Below, in pieces: positions 1 through 12,541 of a stretch of 64,000 nt of DNA; position 1 is the stretch's first letter; each line of letters starts with the position of its first letter. Source of the stretch: Sulfurimonas sp. HSL3-1 (GTDB lineage Bacteria; Campylobacterota; Campylobacteria; Campylobacterales; Sulfurimonadaceae); contig NZ_CP147920.1 in NCBI RefSeq assembly GCF_039645995.1, positions 62,001-126,000 on the forward strand. Direction: 5' to 3'. The translations under genes were made by a program, and so were the position numbers. The notes under the pieces are model-generated. The model was not told the DNA's origin. It was given only the letters and a program-made list of their open reading frames with translations, and did no database searches.

Positions 1-1980
1 GCGGGTCGCGTAGTGGTCGTCGGTCAGGTTGCGGCCGTAGAGCTTGGCGGTGGCGGTGGTGTTGCCGAAAACGAAGTCGCGGGCGATGTTGGCGTCGATG
101 CGCGTATAGTCCCCCAGGTCCAGGCCGGTCATCGTGCCTTTCGGGCTGCGCGAGCTGGAGTAGCCGTCGACGCGTTTGGCCGAGATGTTGAAACGGTAGG
201 CCTCGTAGCTGTGGCTCAGCAGGGCGCTGAAGGTGTTGCGCGGCATCGTGGCGCCGAGGCTCTCCGTGGTCACGCCTTCGGACGTCGTCGAATTCTCGAT
301 GATATGGGTCCATGCGAAGCGGTAGCTCGTCGTCTTGCCGATGCGCCCTTTGAGGAGAAATTCGACCCCTTTGCGGTGGGAATCCTGCTCGGTGTAGTAG
401 TAGTACTCGTTGCCGTCGCTGTCGGTGTAGGTATTGCCCGTCGCGGTTTTTTCATTGTCGATAGCGACATCGAAATAGGTGAGCGCCGGGACGAAGGCGC
501 GGGCGATGCCCGCCTCGAAACCGATCTCCCAGCGCTGCTGCCGTTCGCCGTGCAGCGTCGCGTTGTTTTCGGTCATCAGGTCGAAATCCCCGGAGGTCCC
601 TTCATTGCCGTAGAAGTAGCGCGCGCTCAGGCGGTAGCCGTCGGCGACGCTGACAAGCATGCCCGCCGTAAAGACGTTGGCGGGGGGAAGGTCCGTATTT
701 TTATTGGCATCCGGCGTCGCCAGTGCTTCGCTTTTGGCCGCCGTGGCGTGGTTGATGTGCTTGACGTCGTAGCGGTAGCCGGCGTCGAGGCAGAGCATCC
801 CGTCGAATAGGGAGTGTTCGGCGGCGACGGAGTAGCCGTTCACCGTCGTGTTGTAGCTGTTGTAGGCCTTGGAGAGGTTGGGACCGAACCCTTTGCTCTG
901 GGTCGACTGTCCGCCGAGATGCACGGTGGTGTCACCGAAGCGGGCGTTGTGCCGGAGGCTCAGGGTCTGGGTCTTCTCCTCGTAGTGACGCTGCGACGCC
1001 ACGGCGCTGTTGAAATATTCGTTGTGCTCCTCCTGGTCGTACGCGATCGTCGCCGCGGAGAAGAGCGTGATCTGGTTCTCGTTCCAGAGGACATTGCCGT
1101 CCAGGGAGAAGATGCGGGTCTGGACAGGGTCATAGTACCATTTCGCGCTGTCGGTCGTGCCGTCGACGGTGACGCCGCGCTGCATCTCGAAGCGGCCGCT
1201 ATCGATGTAGCCCATCATATTCAGGGAAAGTTTCCCGAGGGTGAGGCCGCCGTTGACCATTCCCGACACGGCCCTGCTGCCGTCGAACCACGAATCTTTG
1301 CTCGGGCGGTCGTGGCGGGAGGCCATCATCCCGACATAGCTGTTGTAGGGAGCGCCCTCGTCCAGCCGTGTTCCGACATAGATGTCCTGCCCGTTCGCCG
1401 CGGGCTGCGCGACGGCCTGTTCGTAGTAGGCGTGGAGCAGCCCTTCGGTGGTTTTCGGCCGTTTGGTGCGGATGACGATAAACCCGATATTGAGGCCCGA
1501 GCCGCTGTTCGAGGCGCCGATGCCGATGGACGGCGCCAGGGAGAGGGCCGTCGACGAGCGGACGATCTCGATCGATTCGATCGCGTTGACGGGGAGCTGC
1601 TGCAGCATCCGGTCACTGCTGGAGGGGAGAATGGCCCCGTCGACGATGTAGGTGATGCTGCCGCCGCCGCGCATGTTGACAAAGAAGGGGTGGCGGCGTC
1701 CCTGGTAGGTGAGGTCCAGTCCCGTCGCCATGTTCAGGAGTTCGAGGACGTTCTTGGCCTTGTAGGCTTCGATCTCCTTCTCATCCATCACCTCCGTGCC
1801 GAAGGCGGCGGATTTGGCGACGCGGTAGGGGTTGGTCGGACTGTCGATCTGCGTATCGTCGCGTTCGGCGGATTGGGAATAGGCCGATTCGGTCGCGGTG
1901 ACGGGGGCCAGATAGGTATCGTCGGCCGTGGCGGCGTGCTGCAGGAGGAGAAGTCCTGTGATGGCAAGGTTTTTTTTCAT
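1..1980 (-). CDS. TonB-dependent outer-membrane receptor (3' end outside window)
   Basis: Outer-membrane gated channel that uses TonB energy to import a scarce ligand. The N-terminus is a signal peptide (MKKNLAITGLLLL) followed by a possible TonB box around APVTATES, then a plug domain whose VNMRGGGS and YIVDGAI segments are typical. After that come alternating beta-barrel strands up to GRNLTDDHYATR, which normally sits just before the last strand of such receptors. About 660 codons are visible and the C-terminus is cut by the window edge. It starts 9 nt after the stop of the ATPase gene and is the last visible gene of the operon. Ligand specificity cannot be read from sequence. By context it may carry a molybdate or tungstate complex, or a siderophore-like chelate. 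Confidence 0.9.
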   Translation of the reverse strand, partial: MKKNLAITGLLLLQHAATADDTYLAPVTATESAYSQSAERDDTQIDSPTNPYRVAKSAAFGTEVMDEKEIEAYKAKNVLELLNMATGLDLTYQGRRHPFFVNMRGGGSITYIVDGAILPSSSDRMLQQLPVNAIESIEIVRSSTALSLAPSIGIGASNSGSGLNIGFIVIRTKRPKTTEGLLHAYYEQAVAQPAANGQDIYVGTRLDEGAPYNSYVGMMASRHDRPSKDSWFDGSRAVSGMVNGGLTLGKLSLNMMGYIDSGRFEMQRGVTVDGTTDSAKWYYDPVQTRIFSLDGNVLWNENQITLFSAATIAYDQEEHNEYFNSAVASQRHYEEKTQTLSLRHNARFGDTTVHLGGQSTQSKGFGPNLSKAYNSYNTTVNGYSVAAEHSLFDGMLCLDAGYRYDVKHINHATAAKSEALATPDANKNTDLPPANVFTAGMLVSVADGYRLSARYFYGNEGTSGDFDLMTENNATLHGERQQRWEIGFEAGIARAFVPALTYFDVAIDNEKTATGNTYTDSDGNEYYYYTEQDSHRKGVEFLLKGRIGKTTSYRFAWTHIIENSTTSEGVTTESLGATMPRNTFSALLSHSYEAYRFNISAKRVDGYSSSRSPKGTMTGLDLGDYTRIDANIARDFVFGNTTATAKLYGRNLTDDHYATR

Positions 1981-1988
1981 GGTTTTCC

Positions 1989-2789
1989 TTATGAACATGG
2001 GGTGTGGGATGGGGGATTGAAATGGGGGACGCACCAGCCCCGTTCGCGGTGGCGGATCACCTCCGCATCGACGTCGTAGACATGGCGCAGCATCCGGGGG
2101 GTGATGACCGCATCGGGATCGCCGTCGGCGATGATTTTGCCCCCGTGCATGACGACGACCCGGGTGGAGACCAGCAGCGCATGGTCGGGATAGTGCGTCG
2201 TCTTTAAAAAGGTGTAGCCCTCTGCCGCCAGCTCCGCGATCATCCGCAGCAGGCGCATCTGGTTGCCGTAATCAAGCCCGTTGACCGGTTCGTCCATGAT
2301 AAAGGTACGCACCTCCTGGGCGATGGCGCGCGCCAGCAGCACCATCTGTTTCTGGCCGCCGCTGAGCTGCCCGAAGGGGCGCGAAGCGAGGTCGGCGATG
2401 CCGACGCGCTCCAGCGCGGCGCGGGCGATGTCGCGGTCGCGCCTGGAGGGGTGGGCGAAAAAGCCCAGCTTCGACACCCGCCCCATCACGACCATCTCCT
2501 CCACGCTGTAGCCGAAGGGGACGTTGTGGTACTGCGGGATGTAGGCGACATGCGTCGCGATGTCGCGGTGGTTGTAGTTGTAGAGCGGTTCCCCGTGCAG
2601 GCGGATGTCGCCCCTGCCTTCGAGCAGCCGCAGCATAAGGCGGATGAGGGTACTCTTGCCGCAGCCGTTGGGCCCCAGCAGGCTCACGACCTCTCCGGGG
2701 TAGAGGGCGAGGTCGACGCCCTCCAAAACGGAATGTTTCGGATAGGCAAAAGAGAGATTTTTAACAGTATAGACAGGTTTCAGTTCCAT
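1989..2789 (-). CDS. ABC transporter ATP-binding protein, BtuD/FecE/MolC type
   Basis: Cytoplasmic ATPase of a type II (BtuCD-like) importer, 266 aa. Walker A GPNGCGKST lies at residues 39-47, the Q-loop at IPQ (about 86), signature LSGGQ at 142-146, Walker B FIMDEP at 163-168 and the switch His at about 199. The gene overlaps the end of the permease gene by 10 nt, so the two are translationally coupled. With the permease (2780-3805) and binding protein (6171-7169) it makes a complete importer. The family serves vitamin B12, haem, ferric siderophores and, in the MolBCA branch, molybdate/tungstate. The ModE-type boxes ahead of the operon favour the last, by inference. Confidence 0.93.
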   Translation of the reverse strand: MELKPVYTVKNLSFAYPKHSVLEGVDLALYPGEVVSLLGPNGCGKSTLIRLMLRLLEGRGDIRLHGEPLYNYNHRDIATHVAYIPQYHNVPFGYSVEEMVVMGRVSKLGFFAHPSRRDRDIARAALERVGIADLASRPFGQLSGGQKQMVLLARAIAQEVRTFIMDEPVNGLDYGNQMRLLRMIAELAAEGYTFLKTTHYPDHALLVSTRVVVMHGGKIIADGDPDAVITPRMLRHVYDVDAEVIRHRERGWCVPHFNPPSHTPCS

Positions 2790-3805
2790 GCGGCCCTCGC
2801 GTTTTTAAGTACGATGATGAAGACGGGGATGCCGATGAGCGAGGTGAGGATCCCGATGGGGATCTCGACGTTCATCGCCAGGCGGGAGACGGAATCGGCC
2901 AGGAGCATGAAGGCCCCTCCGACCAGGGCGCTCAGCGGCAGCAGCAGCGTATGCGACGGCCCCGCGGCCATGCGGACGATATGCGGGATGATGAGTCCCA
3001 CCCAGCCGATGATGCCCGCCATCACCACGGAGAGCGACGAGGCGAGCGTCGCCAGGATAATGGCGGTGAGGCGGATGCGTTTGACGTCGATGCCAAGCGC
3101 GCGCGCCTCCTCGTCGCCGAGGCTCAGCAGATCGAAATACTTGCCCATCACCAGCAGCGCCGCGATGGAGAGCCCCATCGGCACGGCGGCGAGCAGCACC
3201 TCGTCGAGTTCGGCCATGCTGAGCGAGCCCATCAGCCAGTAGACGATGGCCGGCAGCGTGCTGTAGGGGTCGGCGACGTATTTGACGACGGAGAGCAGCG
3301 CCGTGAAGAGCGAACCGCTGATGACCCCGCCGAGCACGAGCATGACGGTCGAGCGCGAACTGGTCACCATGGAGCCCACCATCACGGCGAAGGCGACGGC
3401 GACGAAGCCGAAGGCGAAGGCCAGGGCCTGCACGATCCACCACTGTTCGCTCAGCAGCATCCCCAGCGCCGCGCCGAAGGAGGCACCGGCGAGGACGCCC
3501 AGGATCCCCGGCGAGACGAGGGGGTTGACGAACATCGCCTGGAAGGCGGCGCCCGACGTCGCGAGCGCGGCGCCGATCAGGATGGCCAGAAGGATGCGCG
3601 GCAGACGGATCTGGAACAGGATGTTCTCAAGCAGGGCGAACTCCTCCTGCACGGCGCCGCCGAAGAGTTTGTACTTGACAAAGGCGAGCAGCGTTTCGGG
3701 CGCGATCGGGTACTGGCCCCAGGAGAGGGCCAGCAGCGCCGAGAGCAGGAGCAGCAGGGTGCCCCCGCCCAGAAAGAGCCAGTAGGAAGAGGTGCGCCTG
3801 GTCAA
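2780..3805 (-). CDS. FecCD/BtuC-family ABC transporter permease
   Basis: Inner-membrane permease of 341 aa with about ten hydrophobic segments. The PLVSPGILGVLAGASFGAALG segment is the family signature region, and GLIIPHIVRMAAG near residue 265 is the coupling-helix motif of FecCD permeases. The start is probably TTG, overlapping the upstream receptor stop codon (the TTGA tetranucleotide at 3805-3802), so translation is likely coupled. It would form the membrane dimer that receives substrate from the binding protein at 6171-7169. MolB of Haemophilus belongs to this same family, which is consistent with, but does not prove, an oxyanion substrate. Confidence 0.93.
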   Translation of the reverse strand: MTRRTSSYWLFLGGGTLLLLLSALLALSWGQYPIAPETLLAFVKYKLFGGAVQEEFALLENILFQIRLPRILLAILIGAALATSGAAFQAMFVNPLVSPGILGVLAGASFGAALGMLLSEQWWIVQALAFAFGFVAVAFAVMVGSMVTSSRSTVMLVLGGVISGSLFTALLSVVKYVADPYSTLPAIVYWLMGSLSMAELDEVLLAAVPMGLSIAALLVMGKYFDLLSLGDEEARALGIDVKRIRLTAIILATLASSLSVVMAGIIGWVGLIIPHIVRMAAGPSHTLLLPLSALVGGAFMLLADSVSRLAMNVEIPIGILTSLIGIPVFIIVLKNARAAWN

Positions 3806-6039
3806 AACGACAGACTCAGCGATCCGAAGACGGAGAGCGGCGCCCCCGTCTGGTAGGTGGAAGAGGTTCCCGTCGTCGCCAGGACGTTGTCCGCGGAGAT
3901 GATGGTCGCCACGTACTTCTCGTCGGTCAGGTTCGTCCCGCTGAGGCGGAAGACGGCGCTTTTGCTCCCCAGGAAACCGTTGATGCGGTAGGCGACGTCA
4001 AGGTCGAAGAGGGTGTAGGCATCGACGGTCTGGCTGTTCTGCAGGTCGCCGTAGCGTTTGGAGGTGTAGCGCACGCTCGGCGTGATCATCCAGCCGCCGA
4101 CGCTGTAGGAGAGGGCCGCCTTGGCCAGGACCTCCGGCGCGTCGGGGACCTGTTTACCCTCCGTGTCGATCGTCGTCGTCGGCGAGCTTTTGAAATCCTG
4201 CGTAAAGGCGTACTTGTTGTAGGAGAGCCCCGCGATGAACTCCAGCGATTCGCTGACCGGGCCCGAAGCGGAGAACTCCGCGCCGTAGCCCATCGCGTCG
4301 CCGACGTTGGCGGGGTAGTTGACGCCGTATTCGGGGTCGTAAACGTTGGCCTGCTTGTTCTTGACGAAGGAGACGAAGAGCACCGGGTTCAGCGCGACGC
4401 CGCCGACCATCGTCTTATAGCCCAGGTCGATGTTGTCGGAAGTCTCAAGCTCGAGCTTGTTCCACAGCTGCTGCAGGGTCACGTTCTTGGCGACGAAGTT
4501 GGCCCGGTTCTTGATGTAGGTCGGGAAGAGGTTGACGTCGAAGCCGTAGGTACGGGCGTAGGAGACGTAGAGCGTATTGAGCTCATCGAAGCGGTAGCCG
4601 GCATAGAGCGACGGGATCCACGTATGGAAGGTCTTCGCCTTGACGCTGGCCCACGGATCGAGGGTGCCCTGGGCGATCGCCGTGTCGTAGTTCTGGCTGG
4701 TGTTGGCATCGGTGCCGAAGGTGTAGCTTTTGAGGGACCCGATCTCGAAGCTCTGGTACTGGAGCCCGAGGTTGTAGTCAAAGCCGCCGAGGCTGCCGGA
4801 GAGCTCCGCGAAGGGGGCCTGGAGGGTGTGGTAGCCGGTGTCGGCGAGGGAGGCATACCCGTCAAAGACGAGGTCGCCGCCGACGGATTTGTACTTCAGG
4901 CGGTCCGTCGGCGGTCCCGGAGGCTGCTGCTTGTGGTACCAGTAGCCCAGCGTCGTCTTGAGGGCCTTGGAGAAGCGGTGGGTGTAGTCGGCGACGCCCC
5001 CGTAGAGGTCATGGTCGATCCGCCACTGGATGACCCGGTTTTTCGCAGGGTTCGCGTTGACACTGGAGTTCCAGTACTCCCCTTTGTCCGTTTTGTAGTA
5101 GGGTTTGATCGTCACCGTGTCGTCAGCGCTTGGGCGGAACTGTAGGGTCGCCAGGGCGGTTGTCGTATCGAAGTTCTGCTTGTTCCAGTCGTAGTAATCG
5201 ACGTCGTTGTCCGCCGTCGGGCGGGCGGAGGCGAAATCTTTGTTCCAGTAGCTCTCCAGGTCCTGGGCCTCGGTGTAGGAGAGGGCGTAGTAGTTGTGGT
5301 GGTCATCTTTGTTGTAGATGACGTAGGCTTCCGCGCTGAACATCTCCGAGGGGGTATAGGCGATCCCCGCCATGGCGTTGAAGCGCTCAAGCTCTCCGTC
5401 GCCTTTGTACTTGTCGTATCCGAGGTGGGAGAACGATCCGAAGAGGCGGACGTCCCCCATCTCCCCGCTGTCGAAGCGTGCAAAGGAGCGGGTGAAACTG
5501 TCCGAACCGAACGCCTGCGAGAGCATGGCGTTCGTCTGACGCCGCGGCGCGTTGACGTTCATGTCGACCTTGCCGATCAGGCTGGAGAAACCAATGTTCT
5601 TCTCCGGCGACAGGTACCCTTTGAGCAGGTCGATGGAGGCGACGTTCTCCATGTCGAGCATCTGTTTTCCGCCGCCGGGGTTGCTGGAGATCGGCATGCC
5701 GTTGATCATGTAGACGCCCCCCGGGCCCGACTGGGATTTGCCGCGGATGCGGATGGGGTCGTGGTAGGAGGGTTCGTTGGAACCGGACGTATCGGCGGGG
5801 GTATAGTTGACCGAAGGGGAGTACTGGATGATCGTAAAGGGGTTCATGTTCGCCTGGGTCCCGAGGGTCGTGATGCTCTTCTTTTCGAAGCGCTGATCGG
5901 AACCGTTGGTGTCGCCCTGGTAGAGGGTGTCGTCCAGGGCGCTGTCGGAGACGACGATGTGCTCGATATTGACGGGGTCGGCCCAGAGGGCGGAGGCGGC
6001 CATGACGGCAACGAGGGGGTAGGTGTAAACGGGTTTCAA
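3802..6039 (-). CDS. TonB-dependent receptor
   Basis: 745-aa outer-membrane receptor. I place the start at a TTG (6039-6037) because AAGGAG lies 7 nt upstream and the following residues (LKPVYTYPLVAVMAASALWA) form a signal peptide. The frame stays open further upstream but without family resemblance. A possible TonB box is EHIVVSDS. The plug contains PIRIRGKSQSGPGGVYMING, and the barrel ends with SLSLSF, whose final Phe is typical for outer-membrane insertion. It sits between the binding-protein gene and the permease, whose start overlaps its stop. The ligand is unknown and is inferred from context to be Mo/W related. Confidence 0.9.
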   Translation of the reverse strand: MKPVYTYPLVAVMAASALWADPVNIEHIVVSDSALDDTLYQGDTNGSDQRFEKKSITTLGTQANMNPFTIIQYSPSVNYTPADTSGSNEPSYHDPIRIRGKSQSGPGGVYMINGMPISSNPGGGKQMLDMENVASIDLLKGYLSPEKNIGFSSLIGKVDMNVNAPRRQTNAMLSQAFGSDSFTRSFARFDSGEMGDVRLFGSFSHLGYDKYKGDGELERFNAMAGIAYTPSEMFSAEAYVIYNKDDHHNYYALSYTEAQDLESYWNKDFASARPTADNDVDYYDWNKQNFDTTTALATLQFRPSADDTVTIKPYYKTDKGEYWNSSVNANPAKNRVIQWRIDHDLYGGVADYTHRFSKALKTTLGYWYHKQQPPGPPTDRLKYKSVGGDLVFDGYASLADTGYHTLQAPFAELSGSLGGFDYNLGLQYQSFEIGSLKSYTFGTDANTSQNYDTAIAQGTLDPWASVKAKTFHTWIPSLYAGYRFDELNTLYVSYARTYGFDVNLFPTYIKNRANFVAKNVTLQQLWNKLELETSDNIDLGYKTMVGGVALNPVLFVSFVKNKQANVYDPEYGVNYPANVGDAMGYGAEFSASGPVSESLEFIAGLSYNKYAFTQDFKSSPTTTIDTEGKQVPDAPEVLAKAALSYSVGGWMITPSVRYTSKRYGDLQNSQTVDAYTLFDLDVAYRINGFLGSKSAVFRLSGTNLTDEKYVATIISADNVLATTGTSSTYQTGAPLSVFGSLSLSF

Positions 6040-6067
6040 ATGGATTCTCCTTGGTTTATTCACGGTC

Positions 6068-6082
6068 CCGGGCAGAGCCCGG
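6068..6082 (-). other. Small GC-rich hairpin in the receptor leader
   Basis: CCGGGC-aga-GCCCGG forms a 6-bp perfect stem about 30 nt upstream of the receptor TTG start, within the 131-nt gap after the binding-protein gene. It has no T-tract. It could stabilise or attenuate the polycistronic mRNA inside the operon. I looked for a cobalamin-type riboswitch in this gap and did not find the conserved core. Confidence 0.4.
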
Positions 6083-6170
6083 ATACCTGTACGGATGCTG
6101 TTTTCTTCGTTGCGCACTGAGAGACCGTGTTTCGTCGAACGCAGCTGTTTGTCGGTTGCTCGCGACCCGG

Positions 6171-7169
6171 TCAGGGCGCCAGCAGGTCGTCTATCTCTTG
6201 TGCGCTCAGGTCGACGCCGAGAAACAGTTTGTAAAAGGCGGCAACGCGCGCTTTCAGATCGACGTCGTACGCCTCGGGGTGGAAAAGCGAGGCGAGCCAC
6301 TGGATGCCGATAACGCGCATGAACGACGGCGGACGGTCGACCCAGTTGAACGGCAGTGTTGGGACGAGGTAGATCCGTCCCGCTTTGACGGCGCGGAGCT
6401 GCTGCCACATCGGGTCCTCCACGAGGTCGCCGTAGACCATGGCGTGCTGGACGATGATCACCTCCGGATCGTAGGCCAGCAGGGTCTCGAAGTTGATCTT
6501 CTCCAGCCCGCGCAGGTTGCTCTGGCGGCATTTGTGGACGTTCTCGCCGCCGGCGAAGTTCATGGCGACGACGTGGAAGGAGGTGTCGCACTCGGTTGAG
6601 AGGCCGTCGAGCCCCTCGGCGTAGTAGTAGCGTGTCGGCTTGGTGCCGGCCAGGGAGGTGTTGATCTCGGCAATGACCGTGCGGGTATAGTCGGCCAGTT
6701 TCCGGCCGCGTTCGCCCGCGCCGATGGCGTCGCCGACGCGTTCCATGGCGTCGGGCATCGAGTCGATCTGCCGGAACGGTACGGTCATCGTCGGGACGCC
6801 CAGCTTCGTGATCTGGTCCGTCACGGTCTGCACGAGCATGTCGTCCTCCCAGATCAGTACAAGGTCCGGGCGGGCGGCGATGAGACTCTCGAGGTTGATG
6901 CGGCTGCCGCTGCCGTGGAACGAGCCGATGACGGGCAGCGCGAGAAAGCGCGCGTCGAGGTAGGCGGGATCGGCGCCGTTAAAGGGGTTCTTGGCCGCGA
7001 AGTTGAGGCCGATCATCTTGTCGGGGGCGAGGGCGTAGAGCAGGTAGTTCATCGGTGGCGATGAGCCGAAGACCTTTTGGACGGTCGCCTGATCTTCTTT
7101 CATATCGCTAAGCGCCTGGGGTACCGAGACGAGCACCGATATAAAGAGGGTAAGCAGAAGTCTGTTCAT
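6171..7169 (-). CDS. Periplasmic binding protein of type II ABC importer (BtuF/MolA-like)
   Basis: 332 aa with a signal peptide (MNRLLLTLFISVLVSVPQALS) and the Periplasmic_BP_2 fold typical of BtuF/FhuD/MolA. Recognisable segments are LLYALAPDKMIGLN, ESLIAARPDLVLIWEDD (the strand-turn motif seen in this fold), VIIVQHAM, and the WVDRPPSFMRVIGIQWLAS C-terminal helix entry. It delivers ligand to the permease/ATPase encoded just downstream. Predicted mature protein is soluble, not a lipoprotein (no lipobox Cys). Comparison of the binding-site residues with MolA (molybdate/tungstate) versus haem or cobalamin binders would be decisive; from the sequence alone I infer only that it is a metal or metal-chelate binder. 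Confidence 0.88.
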   Translation of the reverse strand: MNRLLLTLFISVLVSVPQALSDMKEDQATVQKVFGSSPPMNYLLYALAPDKMIGLNFAAKNPFNGADPAYLDARFLALPVIGSFHGSGSRINLESLIAARPDLVLIWEDDMLVQTVTDQITKLGVPTMTVPFRQIDSMPDAMERVGDAIGAGERGRKLADYTRTVIAEINTSLAGTKPTRYYYAEGLDGLSTECDTSFHVVAMNFAGGENVHKCRQSNLRGLEKINFETLLAYDPEVIIVQHAMVYGDLVEDPMWQQLRAVKAGRIYLVPTLPFNWVDRPPSFMRVIGIQWLASLFHPEAYDVDLKARVAAFYKLFLGVDLSAQEIDDLLAP

Positions 7170-7178
7170 GGTGGGTTC

Positions 7179-7979
7179 CTAAGAGTGTGAAAGTGAGAAG
7201 GTAATCGGGATCGTCAGATGGGTCAGCGATTCAAGAGAGGGAAAATCGCCGCTGAGATCCCATAGCGTTTGCAACGCTTTACGGTCCAGAATCGTACTGC
7301 CGCTGCTGCGTAAGATTTCCGCAGCAGCGACCGTACCGTTGGAAGCAAGTTTGAACGAAAGCGTTACCACCCCCTCGAGCCGCAGCCTTCTTGCGGCGGC
7401 GGGGTAGGTGATGGCGGATTCGATCATGGCACGTATCTGTCCCAGCACCGTTGCGTCCGGCCCGATTGGGTCAGCTTTTTTGTTGTTGTGTGCAAGCGGT
7501 GTCGCGCTTGACGCATTGTCTGGTGTGTGAGGAGAAGTTTCCGCGTGTGAGGCCGGGGCCACGGGCGGGGACGGAAGAGAGGCAAACGCCTCAGATAAAG
7601 CCGCATCGTCGGGTGTCTTTATCTCAGGGGTTTTGGGGAGAGGAACGGGGGTGTTCTTTGGCGCGGCCTTGACGGTTTCATGTGCCGGCGCCGTTGCCGT
7701 CTTCACCGGCGGTTTGGGACGTACAGCCGGTGTGGCAGGGAGGGGCTTTGCTTCCGGCACGGCGGCCGCTGCTGCGGCACGCGGTGCATAGTCGGCCAGG
7801 GAGATTGCCACTGTCTGCCGCTCGGCCGTGAGGAGGGGCGTCGAGGGGTGCGGTGCGTAGAAGAACGCGCCCACCAGGGCGGCGTGCATCAGCAGGGACG
7901 CACCCATCGCCTGCAGGCGGTGATGGCGGTCATTTTCATGTATCATATTTGATATAACGCTTGGCGCAAAAGAGTGCAT
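7179..7979 (-). CDS. tonB: Energy transducer TonB
   Basis: 266-aa inner-membrane protein linking proton motive force to the receptors of the same operon. A single N-terminal membrane segment (about residues 25-42, ASLLMHAALVGAFFYAPH) is followed by a long Pro/Lys/Ala-rich periplasmic spacer (KPKPPVKT-like repeats, about 70-170). The C-terminal TonB domain carries RRLRLEGVVTLSFKLASNG and DRKALQTL. The ATG at 7979 is preferred because GGAG precedes it by 8 nt; an ATG at 7946 has no ribosome binding site. It starts 3 nt after the globin stop. No exbB/exbD is adjacent, so those must come from elsewhere. Confidence 0.92.
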   Translation of the reverse strand: MHSFAPSVISNMIHENDRHHRLQAMGASLLMHAALVGAFFYAPHPSTPLLTAERQTVAISLADYAPRAAAAAAVPEAKPLPATPAVRPKPPVKTATAPAHETVKAAPKNTPVPLPKTPEIKTPDDAALSEAFASLPSPPVAPASHAETSPHTPDNASSATPLAHNNKKADPIGPDATVLGQIRAMIESAITYPAAARRLRLEGVVTLSFKLASNGTVAAAEILRSSGSTILDRKALQTLWDLSGDFPSLESLTHLTIPITFSLSHS

Positions 7980-7982
7980 CGT

Positions 7983-8555
7983 CTACTCCGCCGCCTTGCG
8001 GCCCGCGAGGGGTTCATAGGGGTAGCGCGTGATGGGGGTGACCGTCGTGCGGCGGTTGATCATGCGGATGGAGAGGGCTTCGATCCACTCCCAGAACTCC
8101 CGGGCGTGTTCGGCGGGCATGGCGCGCTCCGCCATCGCTTTGCGGTACATCATCAGCCAGATGTCGCGGGCTTTCTCGTCAACGATGAGGTGCAGGTGGC
8201 GCATCCGCAGCGCAGGGTGGCCGTGGGCATCGCTGAAGGCCTTCGCTCCGCCGAGGGCCTCGACGAAGAAGTCGGCGGCCTTTTCGGTAGCGGCGGCAAA
8301 GGCGTCGTCATCATCGGGGAACATCTCGCCCAGCACGGTCTTGCGCAGCAGGCCGTGGTGGTATCGGACGAGGTCGCGGATGTTATCTTCACCCCAGGCG
8401 CGGTAGAGCGCGTCGGAGGGGAAGGTGACCTCGGGATAGACGAAGTCGATCTTCGGATCGACCGTGCGCGGGGCGGCACCGGCCCCTTCAAACGGCCGGG
8501 TCCCGCACTGGTTGAAGCCGTGGATCGCCGTCCCTTTTTCTGTAAAGACGTTCAT
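7983..8555 (-). CDS. Truncated haemoglobin-like globin
   Basis: 190-aa cytoplasmic haem protein of the 2-over-2 globin family. Recognisable are VTFPSDALYRAWG (helix A/B), LVRYHHGLLRKTVL, and the proximal region GHPALRMRHLHLIVDEKARDIWL, whose R-H-L spacing and W-L motif resemble group II truncated haemoglobins with a proximal His. It has N- and C-terminal extensions. The ATG at 8555 is chosen over one at 8567 because GGAGGG lies 4-9 nt before it. It heads the TonB/ABC operon, 19 nt downstream of a ModE-type box. Possible roles are O2, NO or redox sensing or detoxification; a direct metal-uptake role is not known for the family. Confidence 0.75.
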   Translation of the reverse strand: MNVFTEKGTAIHGFNQCGTRPFEGAGAAPRTVDPKIDFVYPEVTFPSDALYRAWGEDNIRDLVRYHHGLLRKTVLGEMFPDDDDAFAAATEKAADFFVEALGGAKAFSDAHGHPALRMRHLHLIVDEKARDIWLMMYRKAMAERAMPAEHAREFWEWIEALSIRMINRRTTVTPITRYPYEPLAGRKAAE

Positions 8556-8564
8556 GTTTCCCTC

Positions 8565-8588
8565 CATTATGTTTTAAATGATATAACG
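8565..8588 (-). promoter_or_regulatory. Putative ModE box B (proximal)
   Basis: Forward strand reads CATTATGT-N8-ATATAACG. The right half is a perfect CGTTATAT on the minus strand and the left half matches 6 of 8. ModE of Escherichia coli binds near-palindromes with CGNTATAT and TATAACG-type halves separated by 6-8 bp. The site lies immediately upstream of the ribosome binding site of the globin gene, so occupancy would block transcription or its start. Confidence 0.6.
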
Positions 8589-8639
8589 ATGTTTCAACGT
8601 TTGATGCAGTTGGCGTTCTACAAAAAACGGAACATTTTG

Positions 8640-8663
8640 CGTTGTTTTTGGAATGATATAACG
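8640..8663 (-). promoter_or_regulatory. Putative ModE box A (distal)
   Basis: Forward strand reads CGTTGTTT-N8-ATATAACG, the same geometry as box B and again 6 of 8 in the left half with a perfect right half. It is 75 bp upstream of box B in the same intergenic space. Two boxes of equal architecture near a divergent-free promoter, with modE 3 kb away, are unlikely by chance. Confidence 0.6.
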
Positions 8664-8856: not shown

Positions 8857-10056
8857 TTAGACAATCGTGTTTTTGAAAAGGGTGAACATGCCCCAGCCGA
8901 AATAGACCACACACCACAGCAGCACGATCGCGACAGTGGCGTTGGCCAGTTTGGTGACGATGGGGTCTTTACTGGCATCGAAGACCCCCTGGGTCTTCCC
9001 GACTTTCCAGGCCATGGTCAGAATCCAGCCGATCGCCGTAAAACCGAAGACGACGAAGGTCAGCAGGAACATGATGACCGAAGGCCAGTCGATGTTCATC
9101 GGGTAGTCGTAGATGTTGTACCCGAGCCCCGACATCAAATCAAACCGGATGTATTCCCGCAGGGCGGAGATCAGCAGCGCGGCGATAACCAGGACGCCGG
9201 TCGTGAAATAGCTGGTAATGTTGCTTCTGACCATCAGCAGCAAAACCACCACCGAGACGACGATGGCCAGGGAGAGCGGATTGAGCAGCAGCCCCTCCAG
9301 TAGCATCCATCCTGCAAAGAGCACGGCACTGGCCAGCAGCCCGAAGGTTGCAATCTTTTTGCCGAGATCCCGGACAAAAGAGATATATTCGGGCGTGAAA
9401 TCGTCACGGGTACTGACGAAATCACTGTAGTTGAGCAAGAAGATGCCCAGCGTCGGGGCCGACAGCGTGACGAGGAAGAGCAGCCGTACCGGGTTAAAGT
9501 GGAAATTAAGCCCGGAGGTGTCGATGACGCCACCCGGGGCGTACCACTCCATCCATTTGTCTGGCTGGATCGACTCGTAGGCGAAGACGTGCATCAGCAG
9601 CCCGGCAAAGACCAGGATGAGCAGGGAGATTACACCGATCAGGACACTGCCGGAGGAGCCCTTCTTGTTGGCGTAATAGAACCAGTAAAGCAGCATATAC
9701 CCTGCTAGCAGTGCATAGACGAAGACAAAGACCCAGACGCCCGAGAGCGAGTTGACAACGTACCAGTTGGGATCGTAGATGACCTGCGTAAAGAGCAGCG
9801 GTGCGATCCCCAGCAAGATCAGCAGCGAGACACTGAGCTTGGAGGTCTGCACCATATGGCCGGTCAGCAGTTTCCAGTTGGCACTGCTCTTCTGTTTTGT
9901 GGCGCCGACAATGGAGAGGGTCATCCCGCCGAGCGCCAGCAGGACGAAGGCGGCGTGCAGCGCCCAGGTCAGGACGTAGAGTCCTTGAAAGACCACCGGG
10001 TAAAAAGGAATACCGGCGGGATCACGCAAAATATTTAATGTTGTACCTAAATCCAT
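8857..10056 (-). CDS. Polytopic membrane protein, probable CydA' partner of the CydA-like cytochrome
   Basis: 399 aa with about ten membrane helices and no soluble domain. I do not recognise it by name. The segment FHFNPVRLLFLVTLSAPTLG aligns by eye with PHMFLRIGFMVLMSAVVGF in the upstream CydA-like protein, around the position of the CydA haem-ligand helix. The loop IAPLLFTQVIYDPNWYVV followed by a helix resembles the CydA region before the paired glutamates, which are absent here. I therefore infer a diverged, probably haem-poor CydA paralogue replacing CydB. It starts 11 nt after the upstream gene and is clearly co-transcribed. Confidence 0.55.
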   Translation of the reverse strand: MDLGTTLNILRDPAGIPFYPVVFQGLYVLTWALHAAFVLLALGGMTLSIVGATKQKSSANWKLLTGHMVQTSKLSVSLLILLGIAPLLFTQVIYDPNWYVVNSLSGVWVFVFVYALLAGYMLLYWFYYANKKGSSGSVLIGVISLLILVFAGLLMHVFAYESIQPDKWMEWYAPGGVIDTSGLNFHFNPVRLLFLVTLSAPTLGIFLLNYSDFVSTRDDFTPEYISFVRDLGKKIATFGLLASAVLFAGWMLLEGLLLNPLSLAIVVSVVVLLLMVRSNITSYFTTGVLVIAALLISALREYIRFDLMSGLGYNIYDYPMNIDWPSVIMFLLTFVVFGFTAIGWILTMAWKVGKTQGVFDASKDPIVTKLANATVAIVLLWCVVYFGWGMFTLFKNTIV

Positions 10057-10067
10057 CGCAAACCTCC

Positions 10068-11402
10068 TTAATTAACCTGTGTCGCGATCCAGGCGGCGAT
10101 CGCCTTGGTCTCGTCGTCGGGCAGTTTGATGGTCGGCATGTAGGGGATCGCCCCCTTTGCCAAAACGTCTTTCAGGAAGCTTTCGATCATCACGGCATCC
10201 TGTCCTATGAATTTCGCGATCAGCGGACGGTAGAGGCCCACTTTCTCCAGTGAATGGCAGTTTGAGCAGGCGAGCTTGGTCAGCAGTTCCCCCGCCTCGA
10301 GCTGATTCTCCGGTGTGATGGTCCGCAGCCGGTCGGGGATCCACGGATTGACTTTCAGCAGCCCGTGCTGCGCCACCGTCTCCACCTCGCTTTTGATCCC
10401 TTTGCCGGGAACATCGCGGGCGATGATCTGGTTACTGTAGACGTACTGGCCGGCAACGTAGGGCTTACGCATGCTTTCACGCAGCTTTTCACCCGGCCAC
10501 AGCCCGATCAGGCCGACGACTACGAGCATAGTGACGGCGAAGGGGCGGTTGATCGTCCGCGGTAAGGCAAAGGCGAGAAGAAGGTAGAGGGTGAAGACCA
10601 CGATGATGACGATCCGTGTCGTCAGGATATTCGGCAAGTAGATCCCCAGCAGGATGTGGGCGGTTTCGGGCATGGTGTTGATATACCACATAAAGCCGAC
10701 CATGGTGGCAAAGCCGCCGATCATCCCGATGACGGCGAGTTTGCGCGTCAGCTCTTTGGCCAGGGACTTGTCGTCCATGCTACTGGTGATAACGAAGCCG
10801 ACCACCGCCGACATCAGAACCATAAAGCCGATCCGCAGGAACATGTGCGGGAAGGTGTTGACCCCGAAGAAGGCGTCACTCGCCGATCCGGTCAGAAAGA
10901 ACGCTTCCGTACCGGGCCACATCATAAAGCTGATAATCCCGATGATCAGGAAGAGGGTCCCCAGCGAGGCGAGCGCGAACATATAGGTCAGTTTCAGGTG
11001 GGTTTTGCGGTCGATTTTGTCAATAAAGTAGACCAGGGCGAAGACCCCGATGACCTCGACGATGAAAAAGACCCACTCCGTGGCCCAGACCCAGACGAAG
11101 TTGTGGATCAGCGCGCTGATCCCCCTCGGGCTGGCTGCGGTTGCGGTGTACCAGATGCCCGGACCCGTGATGGAGCCGACGACATACGAAAAAATCAGCA
11201 AGAACATGCCGTACTTTTTCATGTAGACGTAGAGATCCGTGCGGTTCTCTTTATACGCCTTGTGCGAAAGAAAAGCAAAAAGAATCGCCGCACCCACGGA
11301 GGTGTGCGACGCCAGAATATGAATGGTACCGGTGATCCCCATCAACCAGGCGGAGCCGATGTCGGGGAAATAGAAAAGCGGAAACATGCCAATAAAATCC
11401 AT
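10068..11402 (-). CDS. CydA-family cytochrome subunit with C-terminal cytochrome c domain
   Basis: 444-aa inner-membrane protein. The N-terminal 330 residues are CydA-like: His28 in TIHILASHTSVG (haem-ligand position), a TEWVFFIVEV helix with two glutamates (7 residues apart, against 8 in E. coli CydA), and NTFPHMFLRIGFMVL as the second His helix. The Q-loop of canonical bd quinol oxidase is very short. The C-terminal 70 residues form a cytochrome c domain: CSNCH at 379-383 and a likely distal Met in PYMPTIKLPDDE. This architecture suggests electron entry from or exit to haem c rather than simple quinol oxidation. No cydB is present. The start has GAGGAGAAACGG before the ATG. Confidence 0.8.
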   Translation of the reverse strand: MDFIGMFPLFYFPDIGSAWLMGITGTIHILASHTSVGAAILFAFLSHKAYKENRTDLYVYMKKYGMFLLIFSYVVGSITGPGIWYTATAASPRGISALIHNFVWVWATEWVFFIVEVIGVFALVYFIDKIDRKTHLKLTYMFALASLGTLFLIIGIISFMMWPGTEAFFLTGSASDAFFGVNTFPHMFLRIGFMVLMSAVVGFVITSSMDDKSLAKELTRKLAVIGMIGGFATMVGFMWYINTMPETAHILLGIYLPNILTTRIVIIVVFTLYLLLAFALPRTINRPFAVTMLVVVGLIGLWPGEKLRESMRKPYVAGQYVYSNQIIARDVPGKGIKSEVETVAQHGLLKVNPWIPDRLRTITPENQLEAGELLTKLACSNCHSLEKVGLYRPLIAKFIGQDAVMIESFLKDVLAKGAIPYMPTIKLPDDETKAIAAWIATQVN

Positions 11403-11764: not shown

Positions 11765-12541
11765 TCAGGCCCCGATGATGATGTGGTTCTTTGCGACGGT
11801 GGCGTAGGCCTCCATTGCCGTTTCCAGGGCCTCGCTGGCGTCGAGGTCCGTCACGCCGATCAGTTTGGAGCCCCCTTCGAGCTGGAGGGTGATCTCCGCA
11901 TTTTCGCTGCTGCGCTGCAGGGAGGTGATCTTGCCTTTCAGGACATTGATGTCGTCGGAGGCCTCCGGTGGCGTCACGCTGATGGCGACGTCGCTGGATT
12001 TGATGATGGCGTAGGCGTCGCCCCCCTCTTCGAGCCCCATATTGCGTACTGACGTCGAGGTGATGACGGAATAGAGGGTATCGCCGCCGGGAAGCTGCAA
12101 CCGGAGTTCGGAACGCAGCCCGTGGGGCGTGATGGTGCCGACGCGGCAGGTAAGCTGGTTGCGCGCACTCGTTGTGAGGAAGGTGCGCGAGAGGATGCGT
12201 GCGAGCCGCTCGGGGTCGTCCCCTGCTTCGGCGAAGCGGTTGATGAATTCGCGGTGCAGCTCCGCGAAGCGCTTGTAGGTGGCAATGAGCTCGTAGGCGT
12301 GGGCGGTCAGGACCGTCCCCCCGCCGCCGCGGCCGCCGGTCGTTTTTTCGATGATGGGGCGGTCAGCGATGTCGTTCATGGCGTTGACCCGTTCCCAGGC
12401 GGCCTTGTAGCTCATCTTCATCGCCTTCGCCGCGGCGTGGATGGAGCCGGTCTGGGCGATCTTCTCGAGCAGCTCGATGCGCCCGTTGCCCAGGAAATTC
12501 CTGCCGTCCTTTCTCAGCCAGAAGCGTCCGTCTATTTGCAT
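11765..12541 (-). CDS. modE: Molybdate-responsive transcriptional regulator ModE
   Basis: 258 aa. The N-terminal winged helix (residues 1-110) contains GRIELLEKIAQTGSIHAAAK, MSYKAAWERVNAM and TGGRGGGGTVLT, all hallmarks of ModE. The C-terminus has two Mop/TOBE domains: SARNQLTCRVGTITPHG and DDINVLKGKITSLQRS, which bind molybdate or tungstate. The start ATG at 12541 is supported by AAAGG upstream and by the family N-terminus (MQIDGRFWLRKDG); longer readings are unrelated sequence. A TATAAT on the minus strand at 12622-12617 fits its promoter. Classical targets are the mod transporter and Mo enzymes; the two boxes at 8565-8663 are the visible candidates here. Confidence 0.95.
   Translation of the reverse strand: MQIDGRFWLRKDGRNFLGNGRIELLEKIAQTGSIHAAAKAMKMSYKAAWERVNAMNDIADRPIIEKTTGGRGGGGTVLTAHAYELIATYKRFAELHREFINRFAEAGDDPERLARILSRTFLTTSARNQLTCRVGTITPHGLRSELRLQLPGGDTLYSVITSTSVRNMGLEEGGDAYAIIKSSDVAISVTPPEASDDINVLKGKITSLQRSSENAEITLQLEGGSKLIGVTDLDASEALETAMEAYATVAKNHIIIGA

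Follow-up and report, generated by a model that had tools for sequence, protein, structure and literature searches.

A candidate ModE-controlled, TonB-dependent operon for molybdenum or tungsten acquisition in Sulfurimonas sp. HSL3-1

A 64,000-nucleotide stretch of the Sulfurimonas sp. HSL3-1 genome (contig NZ_CP147920.1, positions 62,001 to 126,000; hereafter the window) carries the first part of an operon that, judged from its sequence and that of its relatives, very probably encodes a ModE-controlled, TonB-dependent system for the acquisition of molybdenum (Mo) or tungsten (W), in whichever form. The chances appear evenly balanced that the substrate is a Mo/W metallophore or some other complex of organic or thio type, whose ligand would be opened or recycled by an LLM/luciferase-like monooxygenase, methyltransferases and ModD.

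In the window, the operon consists of seven minus-strand genes headed by a bacterial globin gene (Table 1). All seven same-strand genes listed in a preliminary description of this DNA were recovered from open reading frames and Pfam profiles. Most neighbouring genes overlap or are separated by a few bases; the exception is a gap of about 130 bp between the genes for the binding protein BP1 and receptor 1, provided that the likely TTG start of the latter, which is preceded by AAGGAGA, holds. For receptor 2, the best Met codons are at 1998 or 1980, giving a full-length protein of about 680-700 residues. The operon is longer than the window and extends to the left, into the adjoining stretch (L016), where all genes are again on the minus strand. 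These include two further binding proteins, ExbB, ExbD, a second TonB, a third receptor, the LLM enzyme and two methyltransferases. The operon thus holds a complete TonB-ExbB-ExbD set, TonB being assigned by profile and tonB2, exbB and exbD from their translations and from homologues in related loci. A FecCD-type permease and its cognate ATPase are both present, as expected of a MolBCA-type importer. A promoter scan returned no sigma-70-like site.

Table 1. Features of the operon and its surroundings (window positions unless marked as genome coordinates)
Feature	Coordinates	Strand	Support or remark
modE, molybdate-responsive regulator	11765..12541 (ORF from 12700; likely start 12541)	-	TIGR00637, PRK10676 profile, two Mop domains
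ModE-type box 1	8640..8663		CGTTGTTTTTGGAATGATATAACG; 2 mismatches to CGTTATAT-N8-ATATAACG
ModE-type box 2, overlaps globin start	8565..8588		CATTATGTTTTAAATGATATAACG; 2 mismatches
Bacterial globin, operon gene 1	7983..8567	-	PF01152, E=1.5e-15
Weak third ModE-like site at tonB start, uncertain	7936..7959		One perfect half-site ATATAACG; 3 mismatches to relaxed pattern
TonB protein 1	7179..7979	-	PF03544, TIGR01352
Periplasmic binding protein BP1, Peripla_BP_2	6171..7169	-	PF01497
TonB-dependent receptor 1	3802..6039 (ORF 6591-3802; likely TTG start 6039)	-	PF00593 and PF07715 (plug plus barrel)
FecCD/BtuC-type permease	2780..3805	-	PF01032, E=5e-80
ABC ATPase	1989..2789	-	PF00005
TonB-dependent receptor 2	1..2034, continues beyond left edge	-	Plug domain; completed from L016
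BP2, second binding protein	genome 60886-61926	-	
BP3, third binding protein	genome 59892-60902	-	
ExbB	genome 59465-59956	-	Translation and homologues in related loci
ExbD	genome 59049-59468	-	Translation and homologues in related loci
TonB2	genome ~59052 down to 58333	-	Translation and homologues in related loci
Third ModE-like box, before methyltransferase	genome 58295-58318		
Methyltransferase	genome 57644-58285	-	PF08241
LLM/luciferase-like monooxygenase	genome 56608-57633	-	PF00296
TonB-dependent receptor 3	genome 54641-56611	-	PF00593, PF07715
Methyltransferase 2	genome 53029-53823	-	

A search of the 2.5-Mb genome, a single contig, revealed the FecCD permease of the operon as the sole one above the cut-off, together with 11 TonB receptors bearing the PF00593 barrel, four molybdopterin-domain proteins and nifD. 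Beside modE, a separate two-gene unit (8857-11402) encodes a larger protein with a weak cytochrome bd subunit I score (20 bits) and a cytochrome c domain at its end, and a smaller one without Pfam match; the position of the larger gene beside modE is kept within the genus.

The regulatory assignment is based on the boxes that precede the globin gene. In concert with molybdate or tungstate, ModE acts as a repressor of uptake operons. A ModE possessing both a DNA-binding domain and Mop domains is encoded in the genome, its gene lying about 3.2 kb upstream from that of the globin. Both the modE gene and the pair of boxes had been announced in the preliminary description and were found as such. 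The consensus of E. coli-type ModE sites, ATCGNTATATA-N6-TATATANCGAT, that is CGnTATATA-N6-TATATAnCG (PMC545781), has a spacing identical to that of the pattern used here. By chance, 0.03 sites with at most 3 mismatches were expected in the window, and when the mod region of E. coli K-12 was scanned as a positive control, exactly one site was retrieved, upstream of modA (CGTTATATTGTCGCCTACATAACG). Over the whole Sulfurimonas genome, a pattern search returned only five 24-mers with at most 2 mismatches: three in the uptake locus and two before the modABC operon, which reads OprD-like porin, two Mop proteins, ModA, a TOBE/Mop protein, ModD, ModB and ModC. Three further genomes of the genus were sampled; all of them have matching sets of sites and keep box 1, and in these, as in the present genome, modE adjoins the operon. 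The OprD-like porin that heads the modABC operon (6372-7865 of L017; genome C1:1762371-1763864), downstream of tandem ModE boxes, is itself a candidate for a second ModE-controlled outer-membrane route.

The comparison was then extended to the phylum. Homologues of the binding protein were present in 117 of 397 Campylobacterota genomes; 80 loci were taken, and the 40 closest formed groups A and B (20 each). In these 40 orthologous loci, 94 boxes with a spacing of 8 were counted and at least one box was present in 39, compared with 0-4 hits per group at other spacings (4 to 12) and means of 0.65 and 0.25 for permuted half-sites in groups A and B, respectively. All boxes but one (93/94) lie outside genes mapped by homology. 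modA, modB, modD or modE is adjacent in 35 of the 40 loci. Stand-alone modABC operons of relatives (L155, L156, L160) also have these boxes in front of them, which ties the motif to the classical target of ModE. The recurring parts of the module are the binding protein, receptor, FecCD permease and ATPase, as well as methyltransferases, TonB and ExbBD; the globin is found in 13/20 loci of each group and the LLM enzyme in 11/20 (group A) and 14/20 (group B). Furthermore, nifD occurs in 29 of the 39 box-bearing genomes versus 44 of the 358 others (Fisher p ~4e-16, a statistic that ignores phylogeny). Boxes before orthologous operons, as well as clustered modABC, modD and modE genes, are features of much of the phylum and, as described below, of Proteobacteria.

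Not all members of the family share this arrangement. Campylobacter-type homologues (e.g. L091-L101) and Helicobacteraceae-like homologues (L116-L122) are devoid of ModE boxes, and a de novo palindrome search before the Campylobacter-type operons yielded nothing consistent. These box-less members suggest that the family may carry other cargo or other metals too. In the Helicobacteraceae-like loci L116-L121, the binding protein and FecCD permease are accompanied by a receptor and, in several, by a methyltransferase, possibly for another metal. Sulfurospirillum-type genomes (L070-L078, L080, L081) contain several ModE paralogues, with up to six matches, one paralogue being located inside the module and divergent from exbBD-tonB. 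In a sister genome (G304), a perfect ModE box with a second one in tandem (L154, 8521-8646) has no known mod gene adjacent.

Outside the phylum, a plasmid-collection search detected alpha- and gammaproteobacterial homologues. In E. coli, an operon located between treA and ymgE encodes a binding protein, a FecCD permease, an ATPase, a class I SAM methyltransferase, ModD and a TonB receptor, every one of which is homologous to a protein of the window module or to the ModD of the Sulfurimonas genome itself. This operon, annotated as an iron transporter and absent from K-12, occurs in 2,102 of 5,426 complete genomes (~39%) and is nearly always chromosomal. About 25 bp before the start of its binding-protein gene lies a box, CGATATATATGTAAATATATAGCG or CGCTATATGTGTAAGTATATAGCG in the four sequences inspected, with 0-1 mismatches to CGnTATATA-N6-TATATAnCG versus 2 for the known modA operator. 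A plasmid copy of this "iron ABC transporter" operon with its near-perfect box is found on pMY504-2 (L164, 7959-14385), although it is chromosomal in most strains. Proteus mirabilis keeps the E. coli gene order, with boxes before the binding-protein and receptor genes, and in Ensifer, Rhizobium and Shinella boxes are found at or near the binding-protein gene. modA, Mop/TOBE, glp/moeA or msrP genes adjoin the module in Shinella, Indioceanicola, Rhizobium, Ketogulonicigenium and Azospirillum, and the Bartonella homologue has receptors and an LLM enzyme nearby.

To situate BP1, its predicted structure, profile scores and phylogeny were compared with those of characterised binding proteins. The AlphaFold model shows a confident Peripla_BP_2-type fold (pLDDT 88), whose nearest solved structure in a fold search is 4PAG from Sulfurospirillum deleyianum. 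Locus L081, in which the module layout matches that of the window, with modE and ModE boxes, encodes a binding protein (9672-10694) that shares 100% sequence identity with 4PAG. Profile scores against characterised PDB relatives placed MolA first (108 bits), ahead of IsdE (68), BtuF (63) and HmuT-type proteins (53). The fold search alone did not separate MolA from haem, B12 or siderophore binders, all of which match with similar TM-scores. In the tree, the binding proteins of the module and the proteobacterial ones form a single clade (100/99 support) that excludes MolA, BtuF, FhuD, FepB and FecB, while MolA pairs weakly with 4hn9. The earlier assignment of BP1 to the BtuF/MolA-like proteins, on the MolA branch, was thus not upheld, and neither does BP1 group with BtuF, FhuD, FepB or FecB. 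By its separate clade, BP1 does not share the descent of MolA, though its work may be similar. Within Campylobacterota, Y-x-A and one cysteine are invariant, and a second cysteine and F-x-W-x-x-RPPSFM nearly so. The proteobacterial proteins mostly lack both cysteines and the Arg, and the absence of the two cysteines there counts against the preferred reading.

The order of the genes, the boxes with their statistics and conservation, and the linkage to mod genes are direct observations; from them we infer ModE binding, the direction of regulation, the substrate and the processing of a chelate to be as follows. When intracellular Mo or W is low, ModE would leave its boxes and the operon would be transcribed. 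The outer-membrane receptors, powered by the operon's own TonB-ExbB-ExbD, would then bring the substrate into the periplasm, where one of the three binding proteins would hand it to the single FecCD-type permease and its ATPase for transfer to the cytoplasm. This scheme follows the general behaviour of such parts: import across the outer membrane is energised by TonB receptors together with ExbBD, and a FecCD permease paired with its ATPase acts as an importer. The substrate would probably be a Mo/W chelate and not the bare oxyanion. In the cytoplasm, the LLM flavin monooxygenase, the SAM methyltransferases and, often in relatives, ModD may release or recycle the ligand, and the globin may supply or buffer O2 for ligand processing.

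The most serious alternative is that free molybdate or tungstate is imported as by MolBCA, the receptors only raising the outer-membrane flux and the accessory enzymes being incidental. This possibility, which we consider doubtful but far from negligible, draws on MolA being the closest characterised relative of BP1 by profile, on the transport of molybdate by MolBC-A (PMC4031551) and on alphaproteobacterial versions (such as L161, L165 and L168) that have no annotated receptor within 8 kb. However, BP1 falls outside the MolA branch, and molybdate is small. Three points favour a complexed form: the usual ligands of TonB receptors are large and scarce; a ModE-boxed porin is already part of the modABC operon; and organic-chemistry enzymes (LLM enzyme, methyltransferase and ModD) are repeatedly found alongside the transporter in different phyla. 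Of the outer-to-inner-membrane oxyanion route proposed at the outset, the route for Mo or W is supported by the boxes and the mod linkage; as to the form of the cargo, the accessory enzymes fit a Mo/W complex at least as well as the free oxyanion.

That the operon imports an iron-siderophore, haem or cobalamin, as database labels of its homologues would have it, with a secondary ModE link such as the coordination of Mo-Fe enzymes, is improbable. Pfam and NCBIfam do assign its proteins to iron/haem/B12-type families, the receptor profiles lean to siderophores, haem or B12, and the permease is the only FecCD protein of the genome. Nevertheless, the NCBIfam models for haem, B12 and iron systems all score below their cut-offs, BP1 lies apart from BtuF, FhuD, FepB and FecB, and ModE boxes and mod genes accompany the module in several independent lineages. 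A haem importer was rejected on the family models (IsdE, 36 of 299 bits; TonB-hemin, 36 and 103 of 317 bits), and a BtuFCD cobalamin importer on B12 models below cut-off and the lack of a B12 riboswitch; a search in and near the locus found riboswitches of neither the B12 nor the Moco type. A scan with the E. coli-type Fur-box consensus gave no match upstream of the operon and none scoring well at the other receptor genes either. With 11 TonB receptors encoded in the genome and no second FecCD permease above the cut-off, this permease could nonetheless serve several substrates, including iron complexes. Finally, another scarce metal complex (nickel or vanadium), with ModE-linked regulation in some lineages only, is very improbable: the clade does include the box-less Helicobacteraceae-like members (L116-L119) and TonB/FecCD nickel systems exist in Helicobacter, but physical linkage with modABC, modD, modE and ModE boxes belongs specifically to the biology of Mo/W.

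Compared with known systems, the proposed Mo/W system shares with MolBCA of Haemophilus influenzae (HI1470-1472), whose cargo is molybdate or tungstate, a FecCD/BtuCD-type importer and a Peripla_BP_2 binding protein, but the latter belongs to a separate clade. In the parts of the MolBCA literature consulted (PMC4031551), receptor, TonB-ExbBD, methyltransferase, LLM and ModD components are not described, and a Mo-dependent regulator proper to MolBCA is given as unknown. With the ModABC/ModE regulon of E. coli, Azotobacter and Campylobacterota it has in common the box consensus, spacing and neighbourhood, although it belongs to a different transporter superfamily and has outer-membrane receptors. 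The Fhu, Fec, Fep and Btu systems offer the same set of receptor, TonB-ExbBD, binding protein, FecCD permease and ATPase, but differ by the ModE-type control, the mod linkage and the clade of the binding proteins. The nearest physiological precedent found is that of Azotobacter vinelandii, in which operons for TonB siderophore receptors and ABC transporters are induced under lack of Mo and V via VnfA1 (PMC9542535); these are activated by VnfA1 and not through ModE boxes. Uptake of methylolanthanin and other metallophores (PMC11317620) is similar in principle, as the dedicated uptake of a non-iron metal complex, but concerns another metal and other genes, and no metallophore biosynthesis genes were identified for the present system.

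Porins are the generally assumed route of molybdate across the outer membrane. We found no description of a ModE-controlled, TonB-dependent Mo/W system in the open-licence literature; the survey of ModE sites by Studholme and Pau (2003) could contain a hint. If the proposed function is correct, it would explain a large family labelled as iron transporters, including those of 39% of complete E. coli genomes and of Proteus, place ModD in a context and assign the orphan structure 4PAG; in its metallophore version, it would provide ModD, the "iron" operon found in many E. coli strains and 4PAG with a function. The deposition of 4PAG names nothing more specific than an ABC transporter solute-binding protein; its origin in a ModE-boxed locus of this type makes for a testable ligand prediction. 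E. coli would be a direct test bed, K-12 being a strain without the operon in which ModE has been studied in depth. In Campylobacterota, the system would tie nitrogen fixation and anaerobic respiration to the scarcity of Mo.
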